41,752 nt of DNA from the IMG/VR virus record IMGVR_UViG_3300010885_025122, positions 1 to 41,752 of that record; one strand, given 5' to 3'. Of the stretch, positions 7,849 to 41,752 are shown piece by piece. The stretch comes from a virus. The notes under the pieces are model-generated. The model ran no database searches. It saw only the letters and a list, made by a program, of their open reading frames with translations, and was not told the DNA's origin. A program made the position numbers and the translations under genes. Within the stretch, counting starts at the first letter, position 1. The number at the start of each line of letters is the position of its first letter.

Positions 7849-8429
7849 AATTCTTAATCGTATTTATGTTTTTTTCTTTCCCTGTTTTTGCCTGTTCTAA
7901 CTACATTCCGCACTCGGAGGCGGTTAAAGCTATTGCTTTAAGCCCTGATGCAGGAAAATTGTCCTGCAAAGATTTGCCCCAAGAGGCATGTTATTGCTTC
8001 GACGGTATTGATTGGGAGTCTGCCACTATCATCGACGAGGTTGTAAACGGAGCGCCAATTTACACCGTCAACTCACAGTCTTTGTGCACTGATGAGGATG
8101 CCTGCAAGCTTGCTATGTCAACGCTTCAATGTGACATAGGCTTCACAGCTAAGTATCGCATGGATAATCCTCAGGCTTTCTGTGAGCGCCTCGATGGCTA
8201 TGAGCAAGTCAACACTGGCCAGAAAGTCCTGGTAAATGACGACGCAAAGAAGGTAGCGAAAGAGCAGCGCCAAGCTATTAAAGAGCAAAAGCGCCTAGAG
8301 CGTAAAGCAAAGCGCGATGCTGCCAAGGAAGAACTAAAGAACATCGACTGGGCGCAGATCACAACCATTGCCAAAATGCGCCAAGTGCTTAGGTCAGTTG
8401 TAGATAAAATTGACGACCTCGAGGAGTAA
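7845..8429 (+). CDS. Secreted or lipoprotein-like Cys-rich protein with helical tail
   Basis: The ATG at 7845 is preceded by AAGGAAG and overlaps the preceding stop as ATGA; a longer start 18 bases upstream would spoil the signal peptide. MKFLIVFMFFSFPVFAC is a signal sequence ending at VFA/C, which could be a signal peptidase I site or a weak lipobox with Cys17 lipidated. About eight further Cys lie in residues 40-115. The C-terminal 80 residues are a charged Lys/Glu/Ala/Arg helix, probably coiled-coil. Together with its neighbours on both sides it forms a set of exported proteins. It may be envelope-spanning (o-spanin-like) or a partner of the 5878 product. No known family recognised. Confidence 0.66.
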   Translation: MKFLIVFMFFSFPVFACSNYIPHSEAVKAIALSPDAGKLSCKDLPQEACYCFDGIDWESATIIDEVVNGAPIYTVNSQSLCTDEDACKLAMSTLQCDIGFTAKYRMDNPQAFCERLDGYEQVNTGQKVLVNDDAKKVAKEQRQAIKEQKRLERKAKRDAAKEELKNIDWAQITTIAKMRQVLRSVVDKIDDLEE

Positions 8430-8432
8430 ACC

Positions 8433-8657
8433 ATGAAAGCCCTTCTCGTAATTACTATTAAGGCACTTGGTATAGTAGTTGCAAGCTATGGTGCGGTTAT
8501 CGGGATGGCTTTTGCAATTGATAAGTACTTTATGGAAAAAGCTGAAGCTGTGGTGGATTCAAAGATTGAAGTTATTAAAGAGATTCGCAAGAATGACATG
8601 GAGCATCTCAACCACCGTTTCGATAGACTGGAAACATTGATTAGGAGCAACAAATGA
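8433..8657 (+). CDS. Small membrane protein with coiled-coil tail
   Basis: The 74-residue product has a GAGGAG site seven bases before the ATG. Residues about 4-30 form one hydrophobic segment (ALLVITIKALGIVVASYGAV onward). The rest is a charged amphipathic helix ending HLNHRFDRLETLIRSNK. This N-in membrane anchor plus coiled-coil resembles i-spanins and holin accessory proteins. Its placement after a possible lipoprotein would fit a two-component spanin, but it is far from the lysis-like genes at 20932-21388. I keep it as a membrane protein of unknown role. It overlaps the next gene by four bases. Confidence 0.65.
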   Translation: MKALLVITIKALGIVVASYGAVIGMAFAIDKYFMEKAEAVVDSKIEVIKEIRKNDMEHLNHRFDRLETLIRSNK

Positions 8658-9049
8658 ACGATTTTGATTATGGGCCAAATAATATGTTTAACCTCTCTGA
8701 AGAAGAATTGTACGGGAAACGCAAACGACCGATGCTAGAAGATACAATGGCTGGTCGATTGGGTATGACTTCTGATGAATTAGCCAACAACAACAAAGTA
8801 GAAGCCCAAGGGGCCGCAACAAAAGGAGCTGGGGGCGATGCTGCCGGCGATGCGGCTGGAGGAGCAGCTCTTGCGGCTTCAAACCCTTGGGTAAAGGGTG
8901 GATTGGCCGCAATGAAAGTACTCTCGGCGGGGCTAGAACGTAAGCGTAAAGAACGTGAAATGGAATACCAATCTGTCGTAGACAAACTGAACGCACAGAG
9001 TAAAGCTGTAGGTAACGCACAGCAATTTGCTTCAAGGATTTCATACTAA
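8654..9049 (+). CDS. Hypothetical virion-module protein
   Basis: I do not recognise this 131-residue protein. Residues 1-50 are polar with an acidic start (MNDFDYGPNN). Residues about 55-80 are almost all Gly, Ala and Asp. The last 45 residues form a basic, Gln-rich helix (LERKRKEREMEYQSVVDKLN). The Ala/Gly stretch with a helical end is common in small podovirus internal or ejection proteins, such as those that leave the particle through the portal. It is coupled by ATGA to the gene before it and by a one-base TAATG overlap to the adaptor gene after it. Confidence 0.6.
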   Translation: MNDFDYGPNNMFNLSEEELYGKRKRPMLEDTMAGRLGMTSDELANNNKVEAQGAATKGAGGDAAGDAAGGAALAASNPWVKGGLAAMKVLSAGLERKRKEREMEYQSVVDKLNAQSKAVGNAQQFASRISY

Positions 9050-9942
9050 TGAGACGCCTAGAATTTCTCATCAATACCGTCCGTCGTTCTACAGACAACA
9101 AAGACACAAATGCGGTGACTGATGCAGAAATTATCGAGTTCTTCAACGATGGAGTCAAAGCTATCCAAGCCTTGATCCATCGTCAAAACTACACTCCCGA
9201 TCTCTTCCTCGCTAGTCAAGAGTACAGCTTCGTCAACGGGCAACTGTCCTACGATCTCCCTTCCGACATCTACTCCACCAACGCTATCATGCTAGTCGAA
9301 GTGCGTTTCGGGGACAGTAATGTCAATCAGGGCTATCGTCCAACAAAACGTATTGCCGACGTTGAGCGTCCAGATTTCTTTGGCTACTTCGTACGGGATG
9401 GTCAGATTATCTTCAGCCTAAGCGAAAGCAATACGTCCTTCGCTTTTGATAAGTTCCGCGTAACCTACTTCCGCAAGCTCAAACGCTTTGATAAGCGGTG
9501 GGCAACTATTCAGTCAATAACCTCCGGGAGTCCCAATTCTGTAGTATTAACAGGCACAGTAGATTCTTTAATGCCGGAAGTTGACGACGTCATCTCCATC
9601 GTAAACTCTGCCGGCACAGTCATTCAGTCAAATCTACCGGCAAATTTTTCCTCATTGCCGGCAAGTTTAACGTATGTTGGAGCAACAGCCGGAGTGGCGG
9701 CGGGGCAGTACATCGTTATGGGAGCGTCCTCGTCCACTCACACAGAATTGCCAGAATCAATTGAGCCATACCTGTTGGACTACGTCCGTCAGCGCCTTTA
9801 CACTCGCCAAAACTATTCTGATGCCGACAAGCAGATGGGCTTTACTCAATCCACGGAAGCAGACATAATTTCCCTATTTAGCAACAAGTCTCGGGATCCT
9901 GGCGACCCAGTGATTACGGACACTGACTTTTTGGTGTACTAA
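9049..9942 (+). CDS. Head-tail adaptor (tail tubular protein A-like)
   Basis: This 297-residue protein begins MRRLEFLINTVRRSTDN and continues with a helical bundle containing EIIEFFNDGVKAIQALI. It then has the pattern SFVNGQLSYDLPSDIYS, seen in adaptor proteins that dock under the portal (P22 gp4 and T7 gp11 types). It is longer than either because of an insert at about residues 150-230 rich in Ser, Val and Gly. The gene for the nozzle protein follows immediately (TAATG), as in T7-like and P22-like tail modules. The role, connecting portal to nozzle and stabilising packaged DNA, is inferred from the family and position. Confidence 0.7.
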   Translation: MRRLEFLINTVRRSTDNKDTNAVTDAEIIEFFNDGVKAIQALIHRQNYTPDLFLASQEYSFVNGQLSYDLPSDIYSTNAIMLVEVRFGDSNVNQGYRPTKRIADVERPDFFGYFVRDGQIIFSLSESNTSFAFDKFRVTYFRKLKRFDKRWATIQSITSGSPNSVVLTGTVDSLMPEVDDVISIVNSAGTVIQSNLPANFSSLPASLTYVGATAGVAAGQYIVMGASSSTHTELPESIEPYLLDYVRQRLYTRQNYSDADKQMGFTQSTEADIISLFSNKSRDPGDPVITDTDFLVY

Positions 9943-12296
9943 TGCCTTCAATCAAGCAAAAGCAACTTGGTGGACTTGGGATGCCGGGGTCTTTGCTATC
10001 TCAGCAGCCTGAGAAATTCCGCGACATGTTGAACATGGTTCAAGACCCGGACGGCGTGTATTACACTCGCAACGGGGATGAGGCGTATAGTCTTGCTGCC
10101 CAATCCGGAACATACCAAGTCCGTAAAGTAGTCCCTTACGTAGGTGAGACTGGGGAGAGTCCTGTATTGATGTGTTCTGCTACGTCGGGAGTATCCTTTG
10201 CTTCAGGCGCTAATGAGCTATTTCTCTGGGATTTAGAGACAAATCGGAGATGCGGGGTTCAATCCGACATTAGTTGGATCCCAACCCTAACATCTTCTGA
10301 AGTATCTTTCACGGAACTTGATGATATCCTATATTTCAATTTGACCAATGAAAAGGATTCATTTTTAAAGTCCCGATTTGGACTTCAGAAATGGGATGGA
10401 TTTAAATGGCATCGTGCCGGACTTCCTCGGGCTGCGTCTTTGCCTACTACAGCAGCGGGAACTACTTATTCTCGGCAAGTGTACGTGACCTTAGACTTTA
10501 AGGGGAATGAAACTATCGGAGACTTTAGCTTCTACGCCAACACTCCGGCAGCAGGAAACATTACCTTCAATCCTACAAAAACGGGCGGAGCCACTCCGTC
10601 TCCTTCCCCGCAAAATGATTTGGCACTTCTCGACTATGGTTTTGATTGTAAATACATCCGAGCAACATCAAACCCAAGTCACAATACCGGGACGAAGGAG
10701 CTTACTGTCCCTTCTACAGATCACAATTTAAAGGTAGGCAACTGGATTCAGTTTAGTCCGGGAAGTTCGGAGTGGACGACCAACCTAGTATTGGCAAACA
10801 ATCTGGGGTACAACAAGGGCTATCTTGTTGCTATGCAAGTAAAATCTATTGCCGGGTCTAACGTAGTTTTTGACACTACTTCCAGCAACGTCTACATCTG
10901 GGTCGATAAATCAGAGTGGATTACGGCGCAAAGATGGCAATTGGTGGGGGCAACTTTTGTTGGTGGGTGGGAAAACTGGTCAGTAGCCATCGCCGGCGGA
11001 TTGAACAACCCTACTAATTTGTCGCAATTTTCCTACGCCTCTAACGTGTGGATGCTGTCTTTTGTCAGTACGTCCATCAATTCCGGGTACACTCTCCGGG
11101 GGTTTAGACCAATAGCGTACATGGCAGCAAGCTACACATTTACGGTGCCTTCGGGGGGCTCGACTATTTCAATGTCAACCTTCCCCTTTAGTATGTACGA
11201 AAGCTCTGTAGTTGCTTCTGTTCCTTACCCTGCATTGGAAGACGCATTTGACGATACAGTGGTTCGTTCCGTATTCCCCTTGAGTATCAAATACCTAACG
11301 ACGTCTGCCGGATTTTTAGTGGCTGCGGATGATTCCGTAGTCTACTACAGCTCTGCCGCTTTTGGGTCATCTGCCGAAGTAATCGACGGACTATCCAACT
11401 TTGTTCCAGGCACTAACCGAGACGGGCTTATCGTCGGCATCGGGGCTACGGAGAACTTTGTTTTCCTATCTCGAGAAAAGCGCAATTACACCGTCATCGG
11501 CAACATAGCAACAGGCAACTTTGAAGTGCGGGCATACCGGGAAACACAGCCCGGAGTGACGGATTACAAGAACATCATTTCCCTCCAGGACAACGTCCTA
11601 TTCGCTAACAAGTTTGGTATTTTTGCCGCTAATCAATCCTCGCAAGTGCCCTTGTCCGGCGGAATTGTCGGACTGTTCTATAAGGCTACTACTCAGCGGC
11701 AAGCTATCGACGGGGCACCCCTTGGACCTTTGGAACTTGGGGAAGCTTCTTATGACTACACTCGTAACTGGGTTTCATGGCGGTACACAGTTGACAGCTC
11801 AGCCTACCTCCTTATTTTGGACCTTAACAATGGGGAGTACTATAGGTGGAGCTGGCTTACTGGAACGTGTCAATTTGTGAATGGTATGTATTACATTGCC
11901 GTTCCAGGAGCTACCGCTTCATTAAAAGTAGAAGATATTTCCGGATTAACCTTTGGAGGTAATCCAATTGATAGCTGGATTACGACATCGTGGATCCATC
12001 TTGAGGAGCCATCCCTAGAAAAGCAATTTACCCAAGTTAAACTCTTTGTTCGAGACGTCAGCTCTGCGGGGAATATCGTAGTTTCCGCATACCAGGATTG
12101 GCAGTCTACAACAGCATTACAGTCCAACGTACCGTTTGAAATTGACCCAGCGTACCCGCTATCTCAAAAGCACAAGTTTGCCTCGAATAAGTCCTTAGCT
12201 ATCTCTTTAGTGTTCAAGGCAGTAGCCGGTGAGAGAATGGAGATTGAAGGATATGAATTGGAGTACAATCCAATCCAAGAAGGGATGAAGCGATGA
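9942..12296 (+). CDS. Tail nozzle protein (tail tubular protein B-like)
   Basis: At 784 residues this is near the length of T7 gp12 (nozzle) and longer than P22 gp10. It starts MPSIKQKQLGGLGMPGS, then QDPDGVYYTRNGDEA, the usual opening of nozzle proteins that read out gene-product-specific beta-propeller strands. The whole protein is beta-rich, with many aromatic residues and little helix. It follows the adaptor gene directly (TAATG) and overlaps the next by ATGA. The expected role is the hexameric tube closing the tail and guiding DNA exit. I see no enzymatic motif. Assignment is by length, opening sequence and context. Confidence 0.72.
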   Translation: MPSIKQKQLGGLGMPGSLLSQQPEKFRDMLNMVQDPDGVYYTRNGDEAYSLAAQSGTYQVRKVVPYVGETGESPVLMCSATSGVSFASGANELFLWDLETNRRCGVQSDISWIPTLTSSEVSFTELDDILYFNLTNEKDSFLKSRFGLQKWDGFKWHRAGLPRAASLPTTAAGTTYSRQVYVTLDFKGNETIGDFSFYANTPAAGNITFNPTKTGGATPSPSPQNDLALLDYGFDCKYIRATSNPSHNTGTKELTVPSTDHNLKVGNWIQFSPGSSEWTTNLVLANNLGYNKGYLVAMQVKSIAGSNVVFDTTSSNVYIWVDKSEWITAQRWQLVGATFVGGWENWSVAIAGGLNNPTNLSQFSYASNVWMLSFVSTSINSGYTLRGFRPIAYMAASYTFTVPSGGSTISMSTFPFSMYESSVVASVPYPALEDAFDDTVVRSVFPLSIKYLTTSAGFLVAADDSVVYYSSAAFGSSAEVIDGLSNFVPGTNRDGLIVGIGATENFVFLSREKRNYTVIGNIATGNFEVRAYRETQPGVTDYKNIISLQDNVLFANKFGIFAANQSSQVPLSGGIVGLFYKATTQRQAIDGAPLGPLELGEASYDYTRNWVSWRYTVDSSAYLLILDLNNGEYYRWSWLTGTCQFVNGMYYIAVPGATASLKVEDISGLTFGGNPIDSWITTSWIHLEEPSLEKQFTQVKLFVRDVSSAGNIVVSAYQDWQSTTALQSNVPFEIDPAYPLSQKHKFASNKSLAISLVFKAVAGERMEIEGYELEYNPIQEGMKR

Positions 12297-12658
12297 CCGT
12301 ACTCACGGACCGTCAAATCCGCTCATTCCCGGAGATCAAGGATATTCCGGATGATGCCGACCTCCCGACGGTCATTGAGTATTACAATGAGATGGTCGAC
12401 TCGTTCAACTTCTTCAATAAGAACGTCAGCCTACAGTCAAACTTCAATTGTCAGATAATTGATGTAGAGTTTACGGCAGGGGAGACAAAAAGAGTGTTTC
12501 ATAGACTTGGCATTGTGCCACGTTACCGTTTAGTATTAAGGCAAGAAGGCAACGGACTCATAACCGACGTCCCCCTTAATTGGACGGATAAGTACATTAC
12601 ATTGGTAAACAATGGTGCAGTTGCAGTTAATGCGACAATCATGTTGGTTAAGGAGTAG
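12293..12658 (+). CDS. Small virion protein, possible tail accessory protein
   Basis: No family recognised. The 121 residues have a helical, acidic N-terminal third (PEIKDIPDDADLPTVIEYYN) followed by a beta-rich domain with hydrophobic strands (RYRLVLRQ, KYITLVNNG, INATIMLV-type). It overlaps the nozzle stop by four bases and is followed two bases later by the next ATG. The position between nozzle and internal proteins suggests a tail tip or fibre-attachment component. No signal peptide or Cys-rich region beyond one Cys. Confidence 0.6.
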   Translation: MTVLTDRQIRSFPEIKDIPDDADLPTVIEYYNEMVDSFNFFNKNVSLQSNFNCQIIDVEFTAGETKRVFHRLGIVPRYRLVLRQEGNGLITDVPLNWTDKYITLVNNGAVAVNATIMLVKE

Positions 12659-12660
12659 TT

Positions 12661-13311
12661 ATGGGATTCGGGGATTTTGTTAAAAATGTCGGCGGACAGG
12701 TTTCAGGAACGTTGACTGGGGGAGCTTTTAACACTTCAGGAACAGGATACGCCCAGGGCGGTAGTGTTACTGACGCATTTAAAACAGCTTCGGGGTTAGA
12801 CCACCTCAAGCAAAAAAAACCCAAAACCCCAAAGGGAATTAGCGACGCTCAAATGACCGCAGCCGGCAATGAAGGACTACGTCTCGGCGAACTCCTCACA
12901 GGCCAAACGTTGGCAGATTCCGGCGGTCAATTCCAAGACCTCCTCAAAAAACAACTTGCCCTTTCTAGTGGCGCATCTAATCCAATCACTGACCTCCTCA
13001 ACCAACAGCGTAACGCTGCGGTAGCTCGTACGGGTGCGGGATTGGCAAAAGCTGGTGTTCGCGGTGGTGCTGCTGAAGCCGGAAAATTGCAAGCTTCCCG
13101 GGGCATGGATAAACAGATTGCCGCTCAAGCGTATGACCAATACACTAACAACTTAAACCGTTCTGCTGAAATGGTTGCTGGCGCACAACGTAGCGGCTTG
13201 CAGCCTAAATACACTGAGCAAGGTTTGGCGATTGCTGCAAAGCAACCAACCTTCCAAGGACAAGCTGGCGGTGGCGTATTGAGTGGACTATTTGAAGGAC
13301 TATTTGGTTAA
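12661..13311 (+). CDS. Candidate internal virion (DNA ejection) protein
   Basis: This 216-residue protein is rich in Gly, Ala, Gln and Leu. It has a glycine-rich start (MGFGDFVKNVGGQVSG), a long amphipathic helical middle (residues about 60-190) and a glycine-hydrophobic end (GGGVLSGLFEGLFG). Such Gly-tipped helical proteins downstream of the nozzle gene are typical ejection proteins, which pass through the tail and line a channel across the envelope. The following two larger genes share the same character. The call is by position and composition. Confidence 0.58.
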   Translation: MGFGDFVKNVGGQVSGTLTGGAFNTSGTGYAQGGSVTDAFKTASGLDHLKQKKPKTPKGISDAQMTAAGNEGLRLGELLTGQTLADSGGQFQDLLKKQLALSSGASNPITDLLNQQRNAAVARTGAGLAKAGVRGGAAEAGKLQASRGMDKQIAAQAYDQYTNNLNRSAEMVAGAQRSGLQPKYTEQGLAIAAKQPTFQGQAGGGVLSGLFEGLFG

Positions 13312-13323
13312 GGAGACACAACC

Positions 13324-13632
13324 ATGGATGAAGTAGCAAAAAAGAAGAAAATGCCGATGGGATTGTCTGCCGAGCAAAAACAGCTTGGCGGAGAGACATC
13401 GGTTGAGATGAAGTCAGTCGAAATGGATACTGCTCGCCCCATGAGCCCTAGCTCAATGAAAGGCGTCATTGGCAGTATTCTCGATGAAGCTGCTGGGAAG
13501 AAAAATGTCGATGCAACTGCGGTTGTTGGTGGCAAGCCTGTAGACTTCAAAGCCATGACAAAGAATCCATCTGCTGAAGAAGCCGAAATGAATCGTAAGT
13601 ATAAAGAGAGCCTTAAGAAAATCAAAAGGTAA
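13324..13632 (+). CDS. Hypothetical small internal protein
   Basis: A 102-residue, Lys/Glu/Met-rich protein with an AAGGAG site 9 bases before the ATG. No family recognised. Predicted mainly helical and polar: a lysine cluster at residues 4-10, a Ser/Pro turn near MSPSSMKG, and a charged C-terminal helix. It lies in the internal-protein block and ends five bases before the next gene. Confidence 0.58.
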   Translation: MDEVAKKKKMPMGLSAEQKQLGGETSVEMKSVEMDTARPMSPSSMKGVIGSILDEAAGKKNVDATAVVGGKPVDFKAMTKNPSAEEAEMNRKYKESLKKIKR

Positions 13633-13637
13633 GCAAC

Positions 13638-14675
13638 ATGCTTAAGTTTGAAGACTTTTTCCGCCAAAAAGACGCCACAAAGAACATGGCGGAAATACCC
13701 GTTGAGGATGAGCTTACGCAAGTTGAAAAGCGTCTCAATGCTCAAGATAGCACTGACAGCTTGATCGCTGCGGCTATACCGGCAATAGCCGGAGCATTGA
13801 CGGGGTACGGAGAAGAGGGGCTTAAGTACGGCGCACAAGCTGGCATGGCAAATGAGAAAGAAAAGTCTACATTGCAGAATAAGCTTCTCGAGTTGCGTAA
13901 TCGTCGTATTGCGACACAAGCTAAGAACAATAAGCTGTATGAAGTGGATGCTAATGGCGAGACCCGGTACGCTACCCCCGAGCAAGCAGTTGGGCAATTA
14001 GTCCCCAAGAATGTAAAAACCAACTTAGAAGACGGCAAAGACCGTAGACAAGCCGTAGCTTTAGAAGCCAGAGCCAAAGAGAAGATGACCGATAGGCAGA
14101 TTAACGCCTACAACAATTTCACAAAGCCACAATCTCGAGTTTCTGAGCTACGCGATAACATCGAAACCTCTATTCGGGGTGCTGACATCCTGAACGAAGG
14201 TGGTCCGGTCGGAGAGTCGGGCTTGCCTGTGTTAATTCAGAAAGGTGTATTTGGTCAGGGCGGCGTATTGTCTGACCGAGACATCAGCCTTGTAGGTGGC
14301 GACCAAGCCAAATTGGCACAACTTAACCGAGTCATTCAGCGGGCCATGACGGGTACTTTGGAGCCCACAGACCGGGAAGACCTTTACACGCTATTTAAAA
14401 TTGCTCACGCTAAGGAAACAGAGAAAGCACAGTTAGAATTAGGAGCTATCTCTGAAAGTCAGCGGTTGATCGGCAATGACATTGAAAAGCCGCTTAAGGC
14501 TTACTTTAATTTCAGACCTATTCCTGCATTGGGTAAGGGGGCAAAGCCCGCTCGTTTGCAGTCTGCTCAAGAGCGGCAACAGAGGGCGGGGCAAGTTCCG
14601 GCAACCCCCGATGAGGTAGTCAGACAGGGCGGTCAAATCTATCGACTTAATAAGCAAACAGGGAAATATGAGTAA
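13638..14675 (+). CDS. Candidate internal virion or ejection protein
   Basis: The 345-residue protein is mostly helical. Residues about 35-60 are Ala/Ile/Gly-rich (SLIAAAIPAIAGALTGYG) and could form a membrane-active helix. A long charged coiled region follows, and the last 30 residues (GGQIYRLNKQTGKYE) resemble a small beta hairpin. Membrane-active helix plus long helices fits proteins ejected to form a trans-envelope conduit. It overlaps the next, larger gene by eight bases. No enzymatic motif seen. Confidence 0.6.
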   Translation: MLKFEDFFRQKDATKNMAEIPVEDELTQVEKRLNAQDSTDSLIAAAIPAIAGALTGYGEEGLKYGAQAGMANEKEKSTLQNKLLELRNRRIATQAKNNKLYEVDANGETRYATPEQAVGQLVPKNVKTNLEDGKDRRQAVALEARAKEKMTDRQINAYNNFTKPQSRVSELRDNIETSIRGADILNEGGPVGESGLPVLIQKGVFGQGGVLSDRDISLVGGDQAKLAQLNRVIQRAMTGTLEPTDREDLYTLFKIAHAKETEKAQLELGAISESQRLIGNDIEKPLKAYFNFRPIPALGKGAKPARLQSAQERQQRAGQVPATPDEVVRQGGQIYRLNKQTGKYE

Positions 14676-17145
14676 GCCACCATTTGACCCCAGCAAGCCA
14701 TACGAAGTCGTATCAAAAAAACCGGCGTTTGATCCAAGCAAGCCTTATGAGGCAATGAGCGAAGAAGACTTTGCTCAAGAGATGGCGGGAGTCAATGACC
14801 CGCTTGCCGCTATTCGTGACCGCAACATGGGTCAAGACATCTTGGGCGCTTTAGACGTGCCAGGGGCAATTACTAGGTCCGGAGTTAAATCGGGCATTGA
14901 GGGCGGAAACCCCTTAAGTGCTATGGGTGATAGGGCCTCTAAAATCTTCTCTACTGATTACCCCGCAGGAGTCTTCTCTGCACCGACGGGTGGAGACATC
15001 CTCGAGTCCTTGGGCATGAACCCGGCAGCGGAAGACGCTGCATGGTATGAAAAGTTTGGTAAAGGTGCTGCAGGGCTTGGCGTTGAATTAGTGACCGACC
15101 CCACTAACATATTGACTGCCAGCAAGATGCCCTTCAAAGGCACTATCGGCAAGAAGCTTGGAGAAGCTTCGGAGAGCTACGCGGCTAAGTCATTGGCTCA
15201 ACTTGGTCCTGGCGCAGAGTCTTTGGCAAAACAAGGTATCAACAGAGAAGCCGTCGTAGCTGCTGCAAAGCAACTCGCTGCTGACGAACTGATGCCCCTC
15301 ATCACCAAACCTCAAGAGCTTTACAAGAAGATCAACGGCGGAAGCCTATTAGAGAAAGTCATCCCCGCTGGGCTCGAAGGAGTACCCGGAGCTGCTGCGT
15401 TTAAACGCGGAGCAAAGCAAAAAGGCTTGATTAACGACCTTGCCGACGACCTCGACAACAAGATTGGCAAGCTTGAAAAACAAGACCCGTCCCTAGAGTT
15501 TATTCCTGTAAAGGAATTTACCCAGCCATTCCTACTCAAACAAGTAATGCCTCTTATCGACATGACATCCGCTAAGTACGGGTTGTCGATGGGTGAGATC
15601 CAAGAAACACTTGGGACCATTGTAAAAGAATACGAGATTGTTTGGGGTAAGGGACCGCAAAGCCGCACAGTAAACATTCCGGGAAGCACCGTACAGACCC
15701 GCAAGTTTGGCGACGATGTATTGAACACTCGAGAAGTAACAGAGCAAGGCGGAACAAGACAGTTCCGCAGTCGTGAGACTGTGCCACAAATGCAAGAGGG
15801 CAGCGTCCCAGGACAAAGCCGCACTGTTACAGAAAACGTAGAAGCCTATACTTCAGTAGACCCTATTACAGGACAAGTCTACAAAGAAGGCGGCGTAGTA
15901 TCCGGTCCAACAGAAACATTCCCAGGTAGGAACTTTAGTCAAGAAGTCCGCGACCCTATTACGGGTCAATTGATGACTGAAGAGAAGATTACGGACTCCT
16001 TTAGTAAATACTCTGGCGGCAAGTCCACTACTCTCGACATTGACCCAGTCACAGGTCAGCCAAAGCAAAGCACTTCTTTTGAAGACTTCTTCAAGGCCCG
16101 CTCTCCTCGTAAAGTCACTGAGACTGCGGTGGATCCGGCAACAGGCGCTCCGATACTTCAGGACGAAAAGCTCGCCATTCCCGCAGGAATGTCATTGCAG
16201 AAGATTCACCGACTTCGCCAAAACATCAATAAGCAAGTAGCGGCTACCTCTTTCTGGGCCGGCGCTGACAAGAAGATGGCAGCTCGTACAGAGATGATGA
16301 CTGACCTCTCCCGCTTCCTTGGTGATTACATTGAGAATAAGCTGGCAGGGAAGACTACAGAGTTTAAGGGTAAGAACGTATCGGCGGATGACTACTATCG
16401 CCGCATGAACGCAGCTCAAGAGACATACATCAATCTCGAGACTTTAATCGAGAACACTCCGATGAAAGACTTAAAGAGCCCTGGCTTTACTCAAATGGCA
16501 ATTAACGCTTTGGGTGCAGCGGTTCCGGGGGCGGTACTTGGTGGAGCTTTGGGTAGTCCGTTGGCCGGAGCATTGGCAACTGGTACTGCTGGCTTGACCA
16601 TGACCGCATCTAAAAACATCAATCCCCTTATGGCAAAAGGCTTAAATGCCGCTGGGAAGTTCGTTCAAGCTCCGGGGATGGAAATCCCCATTAGAGCTGG
16701 TATGATGAACTTACGACCAGAAACAGACAGGGACAATTACGTTATGCAGCAGCCTACAAAGAAATATGACCTCACTAGAGTCAAAGCCTTGAACCAAGCT
16801 AAGTTATTGCCTGACTCCGGGTCTCTACTCAACAACAAAGACTTATTGTTGATGAAGATTCAAAATGCGCAGGGCCCTCAAGTTGCTGACGACTTCAGGG
16901 CTATGCTGGAACAAACTACAAGCCAGAAAGCATTAAAGACCATGCTTGCCGAGTTTGCATATAAAAATCCGGGCTTGTTCGCATTTGACGATCAAAACCG
17001 CTTTGATGGTATCATCCAGCAAGATGTCGACAGAGCTAAAGCGATTAAAGACATCATGCGGTCAAAAACTTTAGGTAGTCGCGAAAAAGCTAGACTGTCT
17101 AACGCAATACAAAATGGCGAGGAAGGTGTCTCATGGCCCAAATAG
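14668..17145 (+). CDS. Large internal virion protein with 30-residue DPxTGQ repeats
   Basis: This 825-residue protein is the largest product of the ejection block. The N-terminus carries two copies of FDPSKPYE (about residues 6-13 and 21-28), a motif common at the start of large podovirus internal proteins. DP-[IVA]-TG-[QA] occurs four times at about residues 398, 429, 459 and 489, a strict 30-31 residue period embedded in Thr/Glu/Arg-rich sequence that looks like a beta repeat array. An Ala/Gly hydrophobic region near residue 615-650 (AVPGAVLGGALGSPLAGALA) could cross a membrane. I see no lytic transglycosylase Glu motif. Role inferred: DNA ejection or wall penetration. Confidence 0.66.
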   Translation: MSKPPFDPSKPYEVVSKKPAFDPSKPYEAMSEEDFAQEMAGVNDPLAAIRDRNMGQDILGALDVPGAITRSGVKSGIEGGNPLSAMGDRASKIFSTDYPAGVFSAPTGGDILESLGMNPAAEDAAWYEKFGKGAAGLGVELVTDPTNILTASKMPFKGTIGKKLGEASESYAAKSLAQLGPGAESLAKQGINREAVVAAAKQLAADELMPLITKPQELYKKINGGSLLEKVIPAGLEGVPGAAAFKRGAKQKGLINDLADDLDNKIGKLEKQDPSLEFIPVKEFTQPFLLKQVMPLIDMTSAKYGLSMGEIQETLGTIVKEYEIVWGKGPQSRTVNIPGSTVQTRKFGDDVLNTREVTEQGGTRQFRSRETVPQMQEGSVPGQSRTVTENVEAYTSVDPITGQVYKEGGVVSGPTETFPGRNFSQEVRDPITGQLMTEEKITDSFSKYSGGKSTTLDIDPVTGQPKQSTSFEDFFKARSPRKVTETAVDPATGAPILQDEKLAIPAGMSLQKIHRLRQNINKQVAATSFWAGADKKMAARTEMMTDLSRFLGDYIENKLAGKTTEFKGKNVSADDYYRRMNAAQETYINLETLIENTPMKDLKSPGFTQMAINALGAAVPGAVLGGALGSPLAGALATGTAGLTMTASKNINPLMAKGLNAAGKFVQAPGMEIPIRAGMMNLRPETDRDNYVMQQPTKKYDLTRVKALNQAKLLPDSGSLLNNKDLLLMKIQNAQGPQVADDFRAMLEQTTSQKALKTMLAEFAYKNPGLFAFDDQNRFDGIIQQDVDRAKAIKDIMRSKTLGSREKARLSNAIQNGEEGVSWPK

Positions 17146-17417
17146 CTCAAGTGCTTAAAGGCGACCCCGGCACTGTTGCTGGCTTGCTGACAACTTTAGC
17201 CGCCTCAAATGAAATTGTACTTATCCGTAAGACATTTTCTGCCGGGGAATACATTATTGTTTATGACAATTCTGGAACTGCGGGTCAAACTATATCTGTA
17301 GTTAAAGGGGATCCGATTACTGCTGCAACCTTAATCAATGCGGTAATTTCCGGGAGTACAAAAGTGGCACTCAGTGACACTTTTTCTGCGGGAAGTTACT
17401 TAGTAGCGTACGACTGA
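17133..17417 (+). CDS. Two-copy TFSAG repeat protein
   Basis: The 94-residue product consists of two copies of one unit of about 43 residues. Each begins with V-L/V-K-G-D-P, runs through a small helix, and ends in TFSAG[ES]Y followed by a hydrophobic strand and Y-D. A third copy is in the next gene. GAGGAAGG precedes the ATG, which lies inside the end of the previous gene. The stop and the next start share one base (TGATG), a classic re-initiation junction. No known family recognised; small beta repeats at this position suggest a tail or fibre accessory. Confidence 0.62.
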   Translation: MAQIAQVLKGDPGTVAGLLTTLAASNEIVLIRKTFSAGEYIIVYDNSGTAGQTISVVKGDPITAATLINAVISGSTKVALSDTFSAGSYLVAYD

Positions 17418-17641
17418 TGGCAACAATAGTTGAAGTCCAGAAATCGTTTTCTGCTGGTAAATACCTAGTAACGGTAGAGGACTCGGGAAGTTTATCTGTA
17501 GTAGTTATAATGGGCGACCCTCAATCATTGGCTTCTGGGTTGAACTTTATAATAAACGCAGTTGGAACAGACTTTTTGCTAATTGACACCAGTACGGATA
17601 AATTCTTAATAGACGCAAGTGTGGACAAAATACTTTTGTGA
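17417..17641 (+). CDS. Single-copy TFSAG-type repeat protein
   Basis: This 74-residue product starts within the preceding stop (TGATG). Its first half (KSFSAGKYLVTVEDSG) aligns with the repeat ends of the 17133 product, and MGDP follows as in KGDP. The second half (LLIDTSTDKFLIDASVDKILL) contains a tandem D-x-S/T-x-D-K-hydrophobic pair. Likely a relative of its neighbour by duplication, encoding a beta-rich virion component. Function unknown. Confidence 0.6.
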   Translation: MATIVEVQKSFSAGKYLVTVEDSGSLSVVVIMGDPQSLASGLNFIINAVGTDFLLIDTSTDKFLIDASVDKILL

Positions 17642-17648
17642 GGACTTT

Positions 17649-17906
17649 ATGGCCGATAGAAGAATAGACCAATTAACCGCACTTCCTACAGTAGATACTA
17701 CGGACTTGGTCCCCATCTACGATATAAGTGCTTCTACAACAAAGAAATCAACTTTCTCTCAAGTTAAGACTTCCCTATCCTTAGTTAAAGCGGATGTGGG
17801 GTTGTCTAACGTGGATAATACTTCAGACGCCAACAAGCCGGTGTCTATTGCCCAACAGGCTGAGATTAGCAATACATCTATCATAAACGCTTTAATTTTT
17901 GGATAA
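17649..17906 (+). CDS. Tail fibre-type small protein
   Basis: I chose the ATG at 17649 because AGGA lies before it; a start 30 bases upstream lacks a site. The 85-residue product contains VKADVGLSNVDNTSDANKPV, a very common tail-fibre and baseplate-spike segment that usually precedes trimerising fibre repeats. The N-terminal part (RRIDQLTALPTVDTTDLVPI) resembles the attachment domains of small fibre proteins. Here the protein stops soon after the motif, so it may be a short spike, or a connector for the larger fibre at 17916. Confidence 0.68.
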   Translation: MADRRIDQLTALPTVDTTDLVPIYDISASTTKKSTFSQVKTSLSLVKADVGLSNVDNTSDANKPVSIAQQAEISNTSIINALIFG

Positions 17907-17915
17907 GGAACACAA

Positions 17916-19967
17916 ATGAAATCTTTTATCGCACCAGCCTATACTTTTACGCCAGGCGCATCGGGAGTTGGTACTGTAAACCTTAGCGGTATTTCCGGGT
18001 TTAACATCAAGTTCCTTGTATCAATCATTAATCAAACTACCGGGGATTTAGTCTACTCCACTGCATCAGCCGCACTCAAATACACTAACGTAGTGGGCAC
18101 GACTGTAACGCTGTTTAAAGATACTTCGGCAATGAGTGCTGGCGATGTCTTACAGGTAATCTATGAAGTTCAATCCGAGGTACTCCCCACGGGCGCGGCG
18201 ACGGAAGCAAAGCAAGACGTAGGAAACTCTTCATTAGCTACTGTGGTAAGTAGACTTCCCTTAGCAAGTACGGCGGTGGTAGACCAGGATACTACGGCTC
18301 AGCCTGTTAGGATTGTTCCACAGTCAAAGTATAGAACAACATTTTCCGCTGCTATCGCCAACAACGTAGACAACGCCCACTTTACCCTACTTCAAACGGG
18401 TGCGGGCATGACTGTCAACCAGACAGGCGGTAACTTAGTTATCACCACGGGTACAACGGTCAACTCTGAAACAGTTATCCGTTCAGTGCAGGGATACAAA
18501 GACGCAATGGCGGCACGATGGTCTGCTATTCTTTCTCAGCGTATTGCAAACAACAACTTCTTCGTAGAACTTGTGGACGTTATTGGTGATGGTCTTTCAT
18601 ATACCATTAACAGTGCTACGTCTGTCACAGTCACTATCCCTGGCACAACATTTACATCAGCGAACGTTGGACAGTCGATTATTATGCAGCAGATCACAGG
18701 AACCGCCGGTATTCCTGGGAGATACGCAATTGCTTCAGTTGTAGGCACAGCGGTCACGTTTACAGTGGCGGCATGGCCAGCAACAGGCTCGGGAACATTG
18801 TCCCTTGTTGGTTGGAACTACATGCGAACACGTTACGATGGTGTGACTGCAACATCGGTGACGGTTGATACTCAGCGAAGAGGGTATAATACCAACTCTT
18901 CAATTGCTGCAACTATCAACACAACCGTATCTCCGGGGCACATGGCAGAGATGACTCAAGAAGATGGAACCTTTGCTTTTGCTGATTCTCTTCAAGCAAT
19001 TTCTGCGGCATCCCTTGCGCTTACAACTAGAGCAGAGTCAATTCAATCCCTGCCAGACCAAGCCGCTACCTTATTCCTTCAAATCAGAGCAGTGAACGGG
19101 ACAGTTGCACCAGCAACAACAACAACATTAACTATGGGAATGGCGCAAGTAACGAACTGGGCATCTCAGAAGGTTGTTATTGCCGGTATCTCTGGCATGG
19201 CAAAAGGGTCTTCTCTTCCAGTTGTGGTTTCGAGTGGTACAATCACTACAGTTACGGGGGTTACAACGGTCACGACTGTTTCCTCTGCCACCTTGGGGAT
19301 TCCCGCAAGTGTTGCCGATGTTGCCTCTGCGGCACTCACAACAACGACCACAACGGCAACACTAACTCCTACTTCTGGCATCAGTTATCAGGTCAACATT
19401 CCCGTGACCGTAGTGACCGGAACAAACCCAACTCTCGATGTGACAATCGAGGAATCAGACGACACTGGCACAAACTGGTACAAGGTCTATGACTTTCCGA
19501 GAATCACCGGGACTGGAATTTACCGAAGCCCTCACCTTCCTTTCTTCGGCAACCGTATTAGATACGTTCAAACAGTAGGGGGCACTACCCCATCATTCAC
19601 TCGTGCTGTTAACCGTCTTCAGTCAAGCTACCCTGCACTTCCACAGCGTCAGTTGATTGATCGGACCATCTCGCTCACTACTTTAAACAGCACGACTCCA
19701 ATCCTCCTTACTCGCGATTGTGGAAACGCTACCCAATTAATCATCAACGTGGGCGCTATCACAACGACAGCTCCCCAGCTTCAACTTGAGGGAAGTGATG
19801 ACTTCGGATTGACCTGGTACAATATCGGATCCCCGCTTACCGCTGTGGCATCATCAACAGTTCAGGTGACGACAATAGATATTAATGCCGCAGCAATTAG
19901 AGCGCGAGTATCGACGGCAGGCGTCGGTGTAACTGCTGGCTACGTAATGATTAAGGCACATGATTAG
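17916..19967 (+). CDS. Tail fibre or receptor-binding protein
   Basis: The 683-residue product is Thr/Ser/Val/Ala-rich with few charged residues and long beta-like stretches. Residues about 92-102 hold LPTGAATEAKQD, the motif shared with the protein at 4331. Near residues 420-490 there are Thr/Val-rich segments, and two copies of a strand pair of the type VTIEESDDTGTNWYKV and LQLEGSDDFGLTWYNI occur in the last third. That suggests two related C-terminal beta-sandwich domains that could bind receptor. It is the last large gene before lysis-like genes, the usual place for a host-recognition protein. AAGGA precedes the ATG. Confidence 0.68.
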   Translation: MKSFIAPAYTFTPGASGVGTVNLSGISGFNIKFLVSIINQTTGDLVYSTASAALKYTNVVGTTVTLFKDTSAMSAGDVLQVIYEVQSEVLPTGAATEAKQDVGNSSLATVVSRLPLASTAVVDQDTTAQPVRIVPQSKYRTTFSAAIANNVDNAHFTLLQTGAGMTVNQTGGNLVITTGTTVNSETVIRSVQGYKDAMAARWSAILSQRIANNNFFVELVDVIGDGLSYTINSATSVTVTIPGTTFTSANVGQSIIMQQITGTAGIPGRYAIASVVGTAVTFTVAAWPATGSGTLSLVGWNYMRTRYDGVTATSVTVDTQRRGYNTNSSIAATINTTVSPGHMAEMTQEDGTFAFADSLQAISAASLALTTRAESIQSLPDQAATLFLQIRAVNGTVAPATTTTLTMGMAQVTNWASQKVVIAGISGMAKGSSLPVVVSSGTITTVTGVTTVTTVSSATLGIPASVADVASAALTTTTTTATLTPTSGISYQVNIPVTVVTGTNPTLDVTIEESDDTGTNWYKVYDFPRITGTGIYRSPHLPFFGNRIRYVQTVGGTTPSFTRAVNRLQSSYPALPQRQLIDRTISLTTLNSTTPILLTRDCGNATQLIINVGAITTTAPQLQLEGSDDFGLTWYNIGSPLTAVASSTVQVTTIDINAAAIRARVSTAGVGVTAGYVMIKAHD

Positions 19968-36976: not shown

Positions 36977-37501
36977 ATGGGCAAAGACTTAATCGTAATA
37001 CCGGAAGAAGACATCCTCCAACGCATAGTGGCCGGAATGACCGAAGCCCATGTATGTGAAGCACTCAACATTCCAATGATGTCCTTTATCCTTCACATGA
37101 CCCAAAACCCACAGTTCTCTGCTCAAGTTGATTCAGCTAGGGCAATGCGGGCAGAACGATGGGTAGGTAATGTAGTCAATCTTGTTACAACGGCCGAAGG
37201 CCGACCAATCATCCATGACAAAGATGACGTCCCTGGCGTTAAGCTAGCGGTCGACACTTATAAATGGTTGGCGAAAGTAGATAACCCTGAGCGGTATGGC
37301 GATAAGCAATCCATCGAAACCCACAATACCAATGTCCTAGAGATCAAAGGACTGTCGCCACAAGAGGCACTAGACATCTTGCGCTCCGACCCCTTCGCCC
37401 CCGCAATCCCGGCAGAATATACTAATGTTACTGAAGGTTATGGAAAACCGATAACTTCTGAGGAATCCACAAATGAGGATGAAGATGAGGATATGCTTTA
37501 A
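36977..37501 (+). CDS. Candidate terminase small subunit
   Basis: The 174-residue protein lies two genes upstream of the large terminase. Its N-terminal part (EDILQRIVAGMTEAHVCEAL, then a second helix) resembles the helix-turn-helix of phage small terminases, which recognise the packaging site. The middle has a typical helical oligomerisation segment (AVDTYKWLAKVDNPERYG). The end is a very acidic tail (ESTNEDEDEDML). GGAG is present in the leader. The next gene starts inside its last codons in another frame. No database comparison was possible, but position and pattern agree. Confidence 0.68.
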   Translation: MGKDLIVIPEEDILQRIVAGMTEAHVCEALNIPMMSFILHMTQNPQFSAQVDSARAMRAERWVGNVVNLVTTAEGRPIIHDKDDVPGVKLAVDTYKWLAKVDNPERYGDKQSIETHNTNVLEIKGLSPQEALDILRSDPFAPAIPAEYTNVTEGYGKPITSEESTNEDEDEDML

Positions 37502-37931
37502 CGATAGAGCTGAAGCCATGATTGGATATGGCTTACACTTCATCGGCACTCACTATGTCTGGGGTGGGAAAGAGCTGAAGAAGGACTCTGGCTATGATTG
37601 TAGTGGCTTTGTGCAAGAACTCCTCGAATCCATTGGCATCGTGTCATCTGGCATTAACAATGCTATGTCTTCACAGCAGCTATTCGACAAACTGCACTCA
37701 CATGTCCAAGGGCAGAAGGTGTCCGGACCTGGCGACATCCTATTCTTCGGCAAAGACCTAAACTCCCTCAACCACATTGCCATCGCGCTATCCGACAAAT
37801 TGATGTTGGAAGCTGGTGGTGGGTCAGATACATTAAAGCAGTCAGGGATGGTGCGTATGCGTCCGATCCGTAAGGACTGTGTAGCAATCCTGCCATTAAA
37901 CGAATTGATAGATAAAGGAGTCAGACTATGA
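37473..37931 (+). CDS. NlpC/P60-type cysteine peptidase (endolysin or virion lysin)
   Basis: The 152-residue protein has the NlpC/P60 core: Cys43 in GYDCSGFV, GPGDILFF, and His101 in LNHIAIAL. These enzymes cut the D-Glu to diaminopimelate or Lys bond of peptidoglycan. It begins at ATG 37473 eight bases after GAGGA; two more ATGs follow within 15 bases. It overlaps the terminase small subunit gene by 29 bases in another frame. It lacks a signal peptide or a cell-wall-binding domain. Placement between the terminase genes is odd for an endolysin, so it could be a virion-associated hydrolase. No other lysin candidate was recognised. Confidence 0.8.
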   Translation: MRMKMRICFNDRAEAMIGYGLHFIGTHYVWGGKELKKDSGYDCSGFVQELLESIGIVSSGINNAMSSQQLFDKLHSHVQGQKVSGPGDILFFGKDLNSLNHIAIALSDKLMLEAGGGSDTLKQSGMVRMRPIRKDCVAILPLNELIDKGVRL

Positions 37932-38128
37932 GCGACGAACCAAAGAAGCGTGGACGCCCTGCAAAGAGCGACTTGCCAAAAGAGATCCGTGAGAACATCG
38001 TGGAGTCAAACCTCCCGGAGCATGTACTCGACGCTATCGAAGAAGCTGTAAGCCAAAAAGAAGAAGAGGATAAGCCAAAAAAGCTTGTTGGCCGTAGCCC
38101 GATTGATGGGTCAGACGTTTGGATGTAA
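37928..38128 (+). CDS. Small charged protein with AT-hook-like motif
   Basis: The 66-residue product has KKRGRPAK near the N-terminus, a typical AT-hook that binds the minor groove of AT-rich DNA, followed by acidic helices. AAAGGAG precedes the ATG, which overlaps the peptidase stop. TerL starts at a TTG within its last codons. It may help terminase recognise or hold DNA, but no family is recognised. Confidence 0.55.
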   Translation: MSDEPKKRGRPAKSDLPKEIRENIVESNLPEHVLDAIEEAVSQKEEEDKPKKLVGRSPIDGSDVWM

Positions 38129-40590
38129 ACAATTCCAGGATCCAGCTAACGGCAAAGGTTATCACCGACCTTGCCGCGGGGTGGACGCCGCATGAAGGAC
38201 AGATAGAAGTCCTCCGCCCACTACTGTATGGTGGGAAAAAGCGCATTTTCGTAGAGTGCGGACGTAAGTTTGGTAAGCAAATAGCTTTAAGTGAGGACAT
38301 CCTTACCCCCTCAGGATTTATTAAGTACGGAGACCTCAAGGAAGGCGACATTGTCTACGATGAGCGGGGACAACCTCAAAAAGTTATTGGGCTATCTCCA
38401 ATCAACTACAGCCCTGAAGCGTACCGCGTAACATTCTGCAATGGAGAGTCCGTTGTTGCCTGTGCGGAACACAGGTGGCTGACCCACACCAAGCTTAATA
38501 GGAAGTCGGAGTGTCGGTTTCCAGGGTCACAGACTCCGACGATAAAGACCACGAAAGAGATTAAAGAAAGTCTGATGCACGGCAAGGAGTTCAATCACTC
38601 TATTCCGTACACTAAGCCAGTATGGATTCCAGAGTCCCAACTTCCTGTTGACCCCTATATATTAGGCGTGTGGTTAGGGGATGGGTCTAAGGATTCAAGC
38701 CGATTTACTTCAGTAGACGCAGAGATTGTAGAATACATAAACAAACAATACCCGGTCACAAGCTACACCCACAAAGAGCACGGCGCCCGCGGGTTGGTGC
38801 AAGCCCTCCGTCCACTAGGCGTTGTTGACAATAAGCACGTCCCCGCCGAATACCTTATGGCTAGCATTGAGCAACGCTTGGCGCTTCTACAAGGATTAAT
38901 GGATACTGACGGCACAATCAATAAATCCGGCAACCATTGTTGCTTTGACAATACGAATAAATCTCTAGCTGACGCGGTGTTCTGCTTAGTCGCGTCCCTT
39001 GGGATGAAGCCAATTAGGAAAGAAAGATGGGGGAAGCTATACGGAGTGCAGCACAAACTGTGCTATCGAATTTGCTTCCAACCCCTCATGCCCGTGTTTA
39101 GATTGAGTAGAAAGTTGGGCAAAATATCAATGCCCAAAAAGACATTGCACCACACAATTGTTTCGGTAGAGCCAGTAGAGTCGGAGCCAATGCGCTGCAT
39201 TTCGGTAACGGGAAACAGCCACCTTTACCTTATTGGGAAAAGTCTGATCCCCACCCACAATACGGAGTCCGTCCTGTACCTACTGCATCGTGAAGCCATG
39301 CAAAATCCCAATCACCACTACTACTTCATCGCACCAACCATCAAGCAAGCTCGAGAACTTATCTGGGAAAACAATCGACTCAAAGGATTTCTCACACCGG
39401 AGGTCACGGCTCGGTATGTCTACAAAGACTATGAACAAGATATGCGCCGGGTGTTTAACAATGGGTCATTCATCAAGCTAGATGGTGCGGATAACTGGCC
39501 ATCATACGCCGGTATCAACCCACATGGACTTGCTTACGACGAATTTAAGGACATTGACCCCAGATTCTATGACGTCATGGAGCCGAACTTGGCATCTAAG
39601 GACGCATGGATGTACATTGTCGGCACTCCACCCGATTCTGAGGAAAACCTATTCTGCCGACTTGCAGAAGAATTTAAGTCTGACGATCAATCCGACTATT
39701 TCAACATGCCGACTTGGACCAATCCCCACATTCCTGCAAAATGGCTGGATCGTCAGAAAGAACGTCTAATCTCCCGTGGCGATCATCACGTATGGCTGAG
39801 AGAGTATGAGGCAAAGCGCGTACGCGGTGGCGCCCGTTCTATCTTCCCTATGTTCGAGCCAGCAAAGACCAACCCAGTCAGCGGGGAAGTGTTGGAGTTT
39901 ACCCGACACGTACGCCCGGAAGGGGAACTTGAAGCCGAGATACGCCGACATCAGCGCGACTACGAGTTCTACCAAATCTTCGACCCTGGTTCTGTCGTGT
40001 GTTTTGCAGTTATCTTTGCTGCGGTCCACAAATACTCAAAGAAAGTCGTTATCCTTGACGAGATATATGAGAAGGACAAGGCGAAAACCTCAACCAAGCA
40101 GATATACCCACGCGCCATGCAGATGTATGCTAAGTTTGGAGTGCCCGGTCACAAAGTCCACAAGGTATTCGACTACGCTGCCCAGTGGTTCGCCAATGAG
40201 GTAGCAGCGGAATACGGCGAAGGACTTATGCCGTGTACGAAGGACTTGAACGATAAGGAAAATAAGCTATCGGTCATCAAAGACTTCATGGTTGCCAGTC
40301 TTTTTGAAGTTGGGCAGAAGTGTAAGTGGACTGTATGGGAGATAAGTAACTACATTGTCGACGATAACGGCAAGATCCCCAAGAAGAATGACCACATCAT
40401 CGACGCCCTTCGCTACCTATTTAATGCCGCCAACCTCCGCACAACTCCGCGTGAGAGATATGTCCGCGACCCCGATAGTCGGATTTGGGTGCCGGAGCAT
40501 GATTCAGAGTTTGCAGATGAAGGACTAATTGGGTTAGACTTTTACCAAGATTTAGATGAAGATGAAGAAACAGAGGGCACATACGCATGA
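38119..40590 (+). CDS. Terminase large subunit (TerL) interrupted by an intein
   Basis: The precursor has 823 residues; after splicing 495 remain, normal for TerL. The ATPase Walker A is split: ECGRKFGK (46-53), then Thr382 onward (TESVLYLL). Walker B is LAYDEF (Asp474-Glu475). The nuclease domain has Asp622 in IFDPG, and a late DHIIDALRYL motif with Asp762. Translation must start at TTG 38119: an in-frame stop lies at 38104-38106 and no ATG occurs before the intein. It overlaps the preceding gene by ten bases. It translocates DNA into the prohead and cuts concatemers. Without splicing the P-loop would be broken, so splicing is needed for packaging. Confidence 0.93.
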   Translation: MDVNNSRIQLTAKVITDLAAGWTPHEGQIEVLRPLLYGGKKRIFVECGRKFGKQIALSEDILTPSGFIKYGDLKEGDIVYDERGQPQKVIGLSPINYSPEAYRVTFCNGESVVACAEHRWLTHTKLNRKSECRFPGSQTPTIKTTKEIKESLMHGKEFNHSIPYTKPVWIPESQLPVDPYILGVWLGDGSKDSSRFTSVDAEIVEYINKQYPVTSYTHKEHGARGLVQALRPLGVVDNKHVPAEYLMASIEQRLALLQGLMDTDGTINKSGNHCCFDNTNKSLADAVFCLVASLGMKPIRKERWGKLYGVQHKLCYRICFQPLMPVFRLSRKLGKISMPKKTLHHTIVSVEPVESEPMRCISVTGNSHLYLIGKSLIPTHNTESVLYLLHREAMQNPNHHYYFIAPTIKQARELIWENNRLKGFLTPEVTARYVYKDYEQDMRRVFNNGSFIKLDGADNWPSYAGINPHGLAYDEFKDIDPRFYDVMEPNLASKDAWMYIVGTPPDSEENLFCRLAEEFKSDDQSDYFNMPTWTNPHIPAKWLDRQKERLISRGDHHVWLREYEAKRVRGGARSIFPMFEPAKTNPVSGEVLEFTRHVRPEGELEAEIRRHQRDYEFYQIFDPGSVVCFAVIFAAVHKYSKKVVILDEIYEKDKAKTSTKQIYPRAMQMYAKFGVPGHKVHKVFDYAAQWFANEVAAEYGEGLMPCTKDLNDKENKLSVIKDFMVASLFEVGQKCKWTVWEISNYIVDDNGKIPKKNDHIIDALRYLFNAANLRTTPRERYVRDPDSRIWVPEHDSEFADEGLIGLDFYQDLDEDEETEGTYA
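38278..39261 (+). mobile_element. Class 3-type intein with LAGLIDADG endonuclease
   Basis: The 328-residue insert starts at Gln54 (GK-QIALSEDILTPSGF) and ends IPTHN381, followed by Thr382 (+1). Residue 1 is not Cys or Ser. Instead there are Trp120 in AEHRW (block B), Cys360 in MRCISV (block F) and Thr379 in THN (block G): the WCT set that defines class 3 inteins, where the block F Cys is the first nucleophile. Both endonuclease motifs are intact: ILGVWLGDG (181-189) and LLQGLMDTDG (256-265). It should therefore be able to home into intein-less terL genes. The host motif is the P-loop, the most conserved site in TerL. Confidence 0.92.
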
Positions 40591-40822: not shown

Positions 40823-41752
40823 ATGGCGTTAGCTTCGTTTGACGACTTCACAGACCAAGACCTCTACTCCGCAGCGCAGACTCCGTTTGAGTTTCGCGAA
40901 AATCCAAACAATAAAGAAGAAACTCTCAATTGGCTGAATGAGAACTTTAACCGCCACTACGAAAAAGCGGACATGCGCTTTCAGGTGTACCGCCGCCACC
41001 TCAACCTTTACAAAAACTTAAGAGACGACGGCGATGGTGTTGTTAATACATCGAGTCGTGACCGTGGAGTTACCTACAAGAAGCCGCGCATCAAAGTCAA
41101 CAAGGCGTTCGAGTACACTGAAGCTCGTGTTGCCCAGGTATCTCGCCAGAAAGTAAACGTCGCCCTTATCCCCCGCAACATGTCAGAGCAAGAGGACATC
41201 AACAACTCTAAGGCCTGCAAAATCTTCCTCGATGCCCGCTCAGAAGAGATCGACCTCGACCGGCTCCACCGTGAGACTGACCGCGTTACCTTCTTGTACG
41301 GCACATCTTTCATGGGAGTTTACTGGGATCCGCAGTCCGGACCGACATCTCCCGCATGGGAACAAGCTGTGCAGAAGTACGGCGAAGGCAAAGTCCCGGA
41401 GTTGAACGACGAAGGCTTGCCTACAGGTAAAAACCTTAAAGAAGCGCCACACATCGGCGACGTATGCGTTAAAGTCTACACCGCATTGGATGTTTTGGTA
41501 GATTCTGACGCTAAGAATTGGGAAGAAGCGAAGTGGTGCGAAACTCTCGAGTGGAAACACGTTGAAGAAGTTAAGGTACTCTATCCAAAGAAAGCTAAAG
41601 AGATTGAAGGCGTAAACAACCGCGTTCAGTACGACCTTTCTCAGAATACCTCATGGGTTCCTGAGAACATGCTTATGGTCCGCACTTTTTGGCATAAACC
41701 GACCCAATTCCTGCCAAAAGGCGCAAAGATTACATACTGCGACGAGTGCATC
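40823..41752 (+). CDS. Portal protein, N-terminal part (310 codons)
   Basis: AAAGGAATAAC precedes the ATG. The protein starts MALASFDDFTDQDLYSAA and contains the P22-type portal features EARVAQVSRQKVNVALIPR, TFLYGTSFMGVYWDP and VYTALDVLVDSDAKNW. It runs to the last base of the window without a stop (310 codons exactly). The C-terminal part is at 1-1120. Together they give about 682 residues plus a missing stretch, close to the length of P22 portal. The window ends inside the gene, so the genome is circular or permuted. Confidence 0.9.
   Translation, partial: MALASFDDFTDQDLYSAAQTPFEFRENPNNKEETLNWLNENFNRHYEKADMRFQVYRRHLNLYKNLRDDGDGVVNTSSRDRGVTYKKPRIKVNKAFEYTEARVAQVSRQKVNVALIPRNMSEQEDINNSKACKIFLDARSEEIDLDRLHRETDRVTFLYGTSFMGVYWDPQSGPTSPAWEQAVQKYGEGKVPELNDEGLPTGKNLKEAPHIGDVCVKVYTALDVLVDSDAKNWEEAKWCETLEWKHVEEVKVLYPKKAKEIEGVNNRVQYDLSQNTSWVPENMLMVRTFWHKPTQFLPKGAKITYCDECI

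Follow-up and report, generated by a model that had tools for sequence, protein, structure and literature searches.

A very probable class 3 intein with a LAGLIDADG nuclease in the P-loop of the large terminase subunit of an uncultured phage

What are the 328 residues that part the Walker A motif of the large terminase subunit (TerL) encoded by IMG/VR virus record IMGVR_UViG_3300010885_025122? We analyzed positions 1 to 41,752 of this record, the whole 41,752-nucleotide stretch that we call the window, and found that the insert is very probably a class 3, homing endonuclease-bearing intein at the P-loop site of phage TerL. The gene that carries it is an open reading frame (ORF) at 38119-40590 on the plus strand, with 823 codons and a TTG start, and it is the only long plus-strand frame that crosses the insertion site. 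By homology and position this ORF is TerL, because it matches the PHROG terminase large subunit, an Sf6-like small subunit gene lies upstream, and a portal gene lies downstream. No Pfam terminase model reached an E value of 0.001 with the intein-bearing ORF, and the terminase identity comes from the PHROGs only.

The ORF reads ...KRIFVECGRKFGK / QIALSEDILTPSGF...CISVTGNSHLYLIGKSLIPTHN / TESVLYLLHREAM..., in the order N-extein end, intein start, intein end, and C-extein start. At the junctions (...VECGRKFGK/QIALSED...LIPTHN/TESVLYLL...) the insertion bond lies between the Lys and the Thr of the Walker A motif, GRKFGK/T. The insert occupies codons 54-381 (38278-39261), and removing its 328 amino acids leaves 495. 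The boundaries and both lengths are exactly those given in the initial annotation, which was made from the letters of the window. The gene is divided as follows.

38119-38277, plus strand: TerL N-extein, 53 amino acids, ending ...VECGRKFGK (first part of Walker A); contiguous with the C-extein in the intein-free relative L021 and 8 other intein-free relatives; start codon uncertain.
38278-39261, plus strand: intein, 328 amino acids, Gln1 to Asn328, bounded by empty-site relatives and the intein alignment.
39262-40590, plus strand: TerL C-extein, 442 amino acids, beginning with Thr+1 (the Walker A Thr) and containing Walker B (LAYDEF) and the nuclease domain; from PHROG terminase matches and alignment with L021, HTVC202P, and Cyrano.

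The start of TerL is uncertain, TTG 38119 being the first ATG, GTG, or TTG candidate. If TerL does begin there, it overlaps an upstream 66-amino-acid gene (38119-38128). In L021 there is no ATG, GTG, or TTG near the equivalent position, and an unusual TerL start codon is possible.

The initial annotation had proposed aligning TerL with intein-less relatives, and this comparison found related TerLs without the segment. L021, an IMG/VR contig with the same gene order, encodes a TerL that is 74% identical and gapless at the junction: ECGRKFGKTESTLYLLHREAM. Eight further contigs (L104-L111), located with a degenerate empty-site DNA pattern, encode TerLs that are 40-46% identical, and all read ECGRKFGKTE without interruption. 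Distant cultured TerLs are also insert-free in the alignment, with GRRFGKT in Pelagibacter phage HTVC202P and GRRWGKS in Escherichia phage Cyrano. Another scan of viral sequences, made with an alignment of two exteins, returned only L021 again, and a scan of genome contigs for this TerL in bacterial hosts or prophages found no relative.

Homologous inteins occupy the same bond in L022 (IMG/VR 3300011424_000002; extein 42% and intein 46% identical) and L031 (IMG/VR 3300001533_002944; extein 38% and intein 41% identical). On a tree of the exteins, the TerL of the window pairs with the empty L021 (support of 0.987), while the filled L022 groups with the empty L106 and L110 (support of 1.0). A mobile insert, or one that has been lost repeatedly, should give such a mixture of filled and empty alleles, and both homing gains and repeated losses would fit it.

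The homology of the insert points the same way. Pfam models LAGLIDADG_3 (PF14528; E = 9e-10) and Hom_end (PF05204; E = 3e-6) matched the ORF. In a sequence search of the PDB, both ends of the insert matched class 3 mycobacterial DnaB inteins (E = 1e-13) and the middle matched PI-SceI. One scan of IMG/VR gave more than 580 related inteins. The initial annotation had also suggested predicting the structure of residues 54-381; AlphaFold2, with an input alignment of 39 rows from the loci analyzed here, returned a confident model with an intein fold (predicted local distance difference test, 96.2; predicted template modeling [TM] score, 0.92). Foldseek aligned the full length of this model with PI-SceI (E = 1.8e-20, TMq 0.78) and the splicing domain of the model with the class 3 inteins 6rix, 6riy, and 6bs8 (target TM of 0.82-0.88). 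The insert therefore has the general marks of an intein: the HINT fold of the model, a terminal His327-Asn328, Thr at +1, and host homologues without the insert. Base composition gave no foreign signature for it (GC content of 0.48 against 0.49 in the C-extein).

The 328 residues could instead be a lineage-specific domain that TerL has retained. Nothing speaks for this beyond the open reading frame, and all of the HINT and LAGLIDADG evidence speaks against it, as do the empty alleles; we regard it as extremely improbable, and an ordinary TerL domain is ruled out by the same alleles and homology. The ORF, Pfam, the alignments, the model, and the empty sites all support an intein that parts the Lys and the Thr of the Walker A loop.

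Which kind of intein is it? The class 3 marker set (WCT) consists of a Trp in block B, a Cys in block F, and a Thr in block G (PMC7891396, PMC6195587). In this intein the set is Trp67, Cys307, and Thr326. The splicing blocks are as follows; fractions refer to 85 distinct aligned viral relatives.

38278-38316, plus strand: block A, QIALSEDILTPSG; residue 1 is Gln, no nucleophile (intein alignment).
38461-38478, plus strand: block B core, Cys62-A-E-His65-R-Trp67; Trp67 is the W of WCT, and Cys62 replaces the Asp of most class 3 inteins (intein alignment; numbered as DnaBi1 Asp62/His65/Trp67).
39196-39198, plus strand: block F Cys307, the predicted initiating nucleophile and the C of WCT (85/85).
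39253-39261, plus strand: block G Thr326-His327-Asn328, the T of WCT (85/85), the penultimate His (84/85), and the cyclizing Asn (85/85).

The W, C, and T are present in 84, 85, and 85 of the 85 relatives, respectively, and His65 and Asn328 in every one. Residue 1 is variable (A in 48, L in 9, M in 6, and Q in 6), and the +1 residue is Thr or Ser in 83. The empty-site junction GRKFGK/TES fixes the position of Gln1, at which there is neither a Cys nor a Ser nucleophile. A class 1 or class 2 intein is ruled out by this non-nucleophilic Gln1 together with the presence of WCT. The class 3 nature of the intein had escaped the initial annotation, and it means that the expected splicing chemistry differs, starting from the internal Cys307.

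A related intein at 2264-3271 of contig L013 begins with Cys1, ends in THN, and is followed by Ala at +1 (PPFH/C...N/AKSAT); it should not splice normally, or its junction is mis-set.

By analogy with class 3 biochemistry (PMC7664689, PMC6195587), Cys307 would attack the bond between Lys(-1) and Gln1, forming an internal branched thioester, and the N-extein would then be transferred to Thr+1. Asn328 would cyclize and so release the intein; an O-N acyl shift would yield native GRKFGKTES in a 495-amino-acid TerL. Because 328 residues part the loop Lys from the Thr, the precursor is not expected to hydrolyze ATP before it is spliced, and packaging would therefore need splicing. The Walker A Thr is at the same time Thr+1, the nucleophile in splicing, and this dual role is a likely reason that P-loops so often hold inserts of this kind.

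The conserved core residues suggest that the intein is competent to splice. Two positions weigh against this: block B lacks the usual Asp62, having Cys instead, and residue 48 is Ala, whereas mutation of Cys48 abolished splicing of MsmDnaBi1. These two substitutions would also suit a degenerate intein that splices poorly or not at all, or whose nuclease no longer cuts. However, Cys62 is shared with 14 of the 85 relatives, the core splicing residues and the two catalytic Asp residues are all intact, the insert is free of frameshifts, and the model is confident. Moreover, a phage with an unspliceable split Walker A should fail to package its DNA. We therefore consider degeneration unlikely, although its nuclease side draws on the divergence of the target site.

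The nuclease lies between splicing blocks B and F and contains two motifs.

38659-38685, plus strand: first LAGLIDADG motif, ILGVWLGDG, with catalytic Asp135 (82/85).
38884-38913, plus strand: second LAGLIDADG motif, LLQGLMDTDG, with catalytic Asp211 (85/85; Pfam LAGLIDADG_3).

The initial annotation had called both motifs intact, and the two catalytic aspartates and the Pfam matches bear this out. In co-infecting relatives with an empty GRKFGKTE site, the free intein or its precursor would be expected to cut that site, and repair of the break would then introduce a copy of the intein. Continued mobility is consistent with the intact catalytic residues and with the mixing of filled and empty alleles on the extein tree. 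Against it, the empty alleles match the 40-nucleotide flanking site at only 25-28 of 40 positions (62-70% identity; 28/40 in L021), the point that a degenerate nuclease has in its favor. The BAKA-Courthouse pair, which was cut in an assay, has 75% site identity, somewhat above these values (PMC5050341). In addition, the nearest intein is only 46% identical, too distant to measure selection on the nuclease.

The initial annotation saw in splicing a possible point of control over late infection. Could splicing be conditional, so that the intein is retained as a redox or metal switch that gates packaging late in infection? Class 3 inteins initiate from a single internal Cys, and oxidation blocks MsmDnaBi1 through a disulfide between Cys48 and the catalytic Cys118 (PMC6195587). 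A paper on DnaB reports reversible inhibition by zinc (PMC7360933). The intein described here does have a Cys62 in block B, but Ala48 stands in place of Cys48, the known redox partner. Furthermore, five phage terminase or terminase-like inteins that were assayed spliced readily, with the ligated product predominant (PMC5050341), and the sporadic distribution is compatible with an element that is mobile, or has been lost repeatedly, and that serves no needed function. On balance, a gating function is improbable.

We did observe a pattern at these two positions. Among 86 aligned inteins, Cys48 is present in 51, Cys62 in 15, neither in 20, and both in none, a mutual exclusion with a Fisher P value of 1.5e-7, uncorrected for kinship. 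On a tree made with both columns masked, Cys62 requires at least 9 changes and Cys48 requires 13; thus, the Cys62 inteins are not one clade. The L031 intein shares both Gln1 and Cys62 with the one in the window, whereas the L022 intein has Ala1 and Cys48. The model has consecutive strands at 48-53 and 58-62, which probably pair as a beta-hairpin with positions 48 and 62 facing each other. Viral class 3 inteins might then exist in two interchangeable Cys layouts, one with Cys48 and in most cases Asp62, the other with Cys62 and no Cys48, in which the second Cys serves as a redox or metal partner of Cys307 and a relocated switch gates packaging by redox state. This is quite improbable, and we treat the pattern as a lead rather than a result.

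The class 3 intein with its nuclease has close parallels. TerL1-a is the name that Kelley et al. (2016) gave to this bond in mycobacteriophages; they called the P-loop insertion there "classic" and described class 3 inteins in other TerL sites (PMC5050341). Terminase inteins are known to splice and to cut (PMC5050341), and 1701 class 3 inteins have been catalogued (PMC7891396). The TerL of Mycobacterium phage Eureka, which we read and aligned, has an intein at the same K/T bond with W, C, T, and LAGLIDADG; it is about 38% identical to the intein described here and has Ala1 in place of Gln1. The insertion between the P-loop Lys and Thr (GRKFGK/T) is that of TerL1-a, whereas no match to the TerL1-a host family, Pfam Terminase_1, was found at an E value of 0.001; we claim a common site and not membership of the extein family. 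Unlike the TerL1-a phages, this phage is uncultured and its TerL is divergent, with cultured C-exteins about 26% identical among the best matches listed.

MsmDnaBi1 (6bs8) and MchDnaB1 (6rix) share with this intein WCT, a non-nucleophilic residue 1, the HINT fold, and, for DnaBi1, P-loop insertion. In contrast, both are mini-inteins without a nuclease, and DnaBi1 has Asp62 and Cys48 where this intein has Cys62 and Ala48. PI-SceI, the yeast VMA intein, resembles it in fold over the whole length, with HINT and a two-motif LAGLIDADG nuclease; however, PI-SceI is a larger, class 1 intein with Cys1, and its host protein is the V-ATPase. Terminase P-loops are documented favorite intein sites, and a phage origin of class 3 inteins has been proposed. 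Since class 3 inteins and TerL inteins at the P-loop bond have both been described, this is a further example, from a phage that is uncultured and whose TerL is divergent.

Other genes around TerL are as follows.

36977-37501, plus strand: terminase small subunit, Sf6-like (Pfam PF20901, E = 2e-13).
40823-41752, plus strand: portal protein, 5' part, running off the window end; homologous to the portal ORF of L021.

The 3' part of the portal gene is at 2-1100 on the plus strand in another frame, and comparison with L021 shows a gap of only about 28 codons between the parts. This split across the ends suggests that the 41.7-kb contig is not a fragment but an almost complete, circularly permuted genome. 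An NlpC/P60 peptidase-like gene (37473-37931, plus strand) lies between the two terminase genes and is kept upstream of TerL in L021; this is an unusual spot for such a gene, and it may encode a lysin or a tail peptidase. The large structural-side ORFs in 4331-19967 on the plus strand (515, 662, 784, 825, and 683 amino acids) had no PHROG match at an E value of 0.001. Thus, the phage is divergent beyond TerL.

This intein leaves existing knowledge unchanged. It does provide a well-bounded class 3 intein with a nuclease, and filled and empty alleles in related uncultured phages, that would be useful for tests of homing and splicing. If its splicing were conditional, packaging would be tied to the state of the cell.
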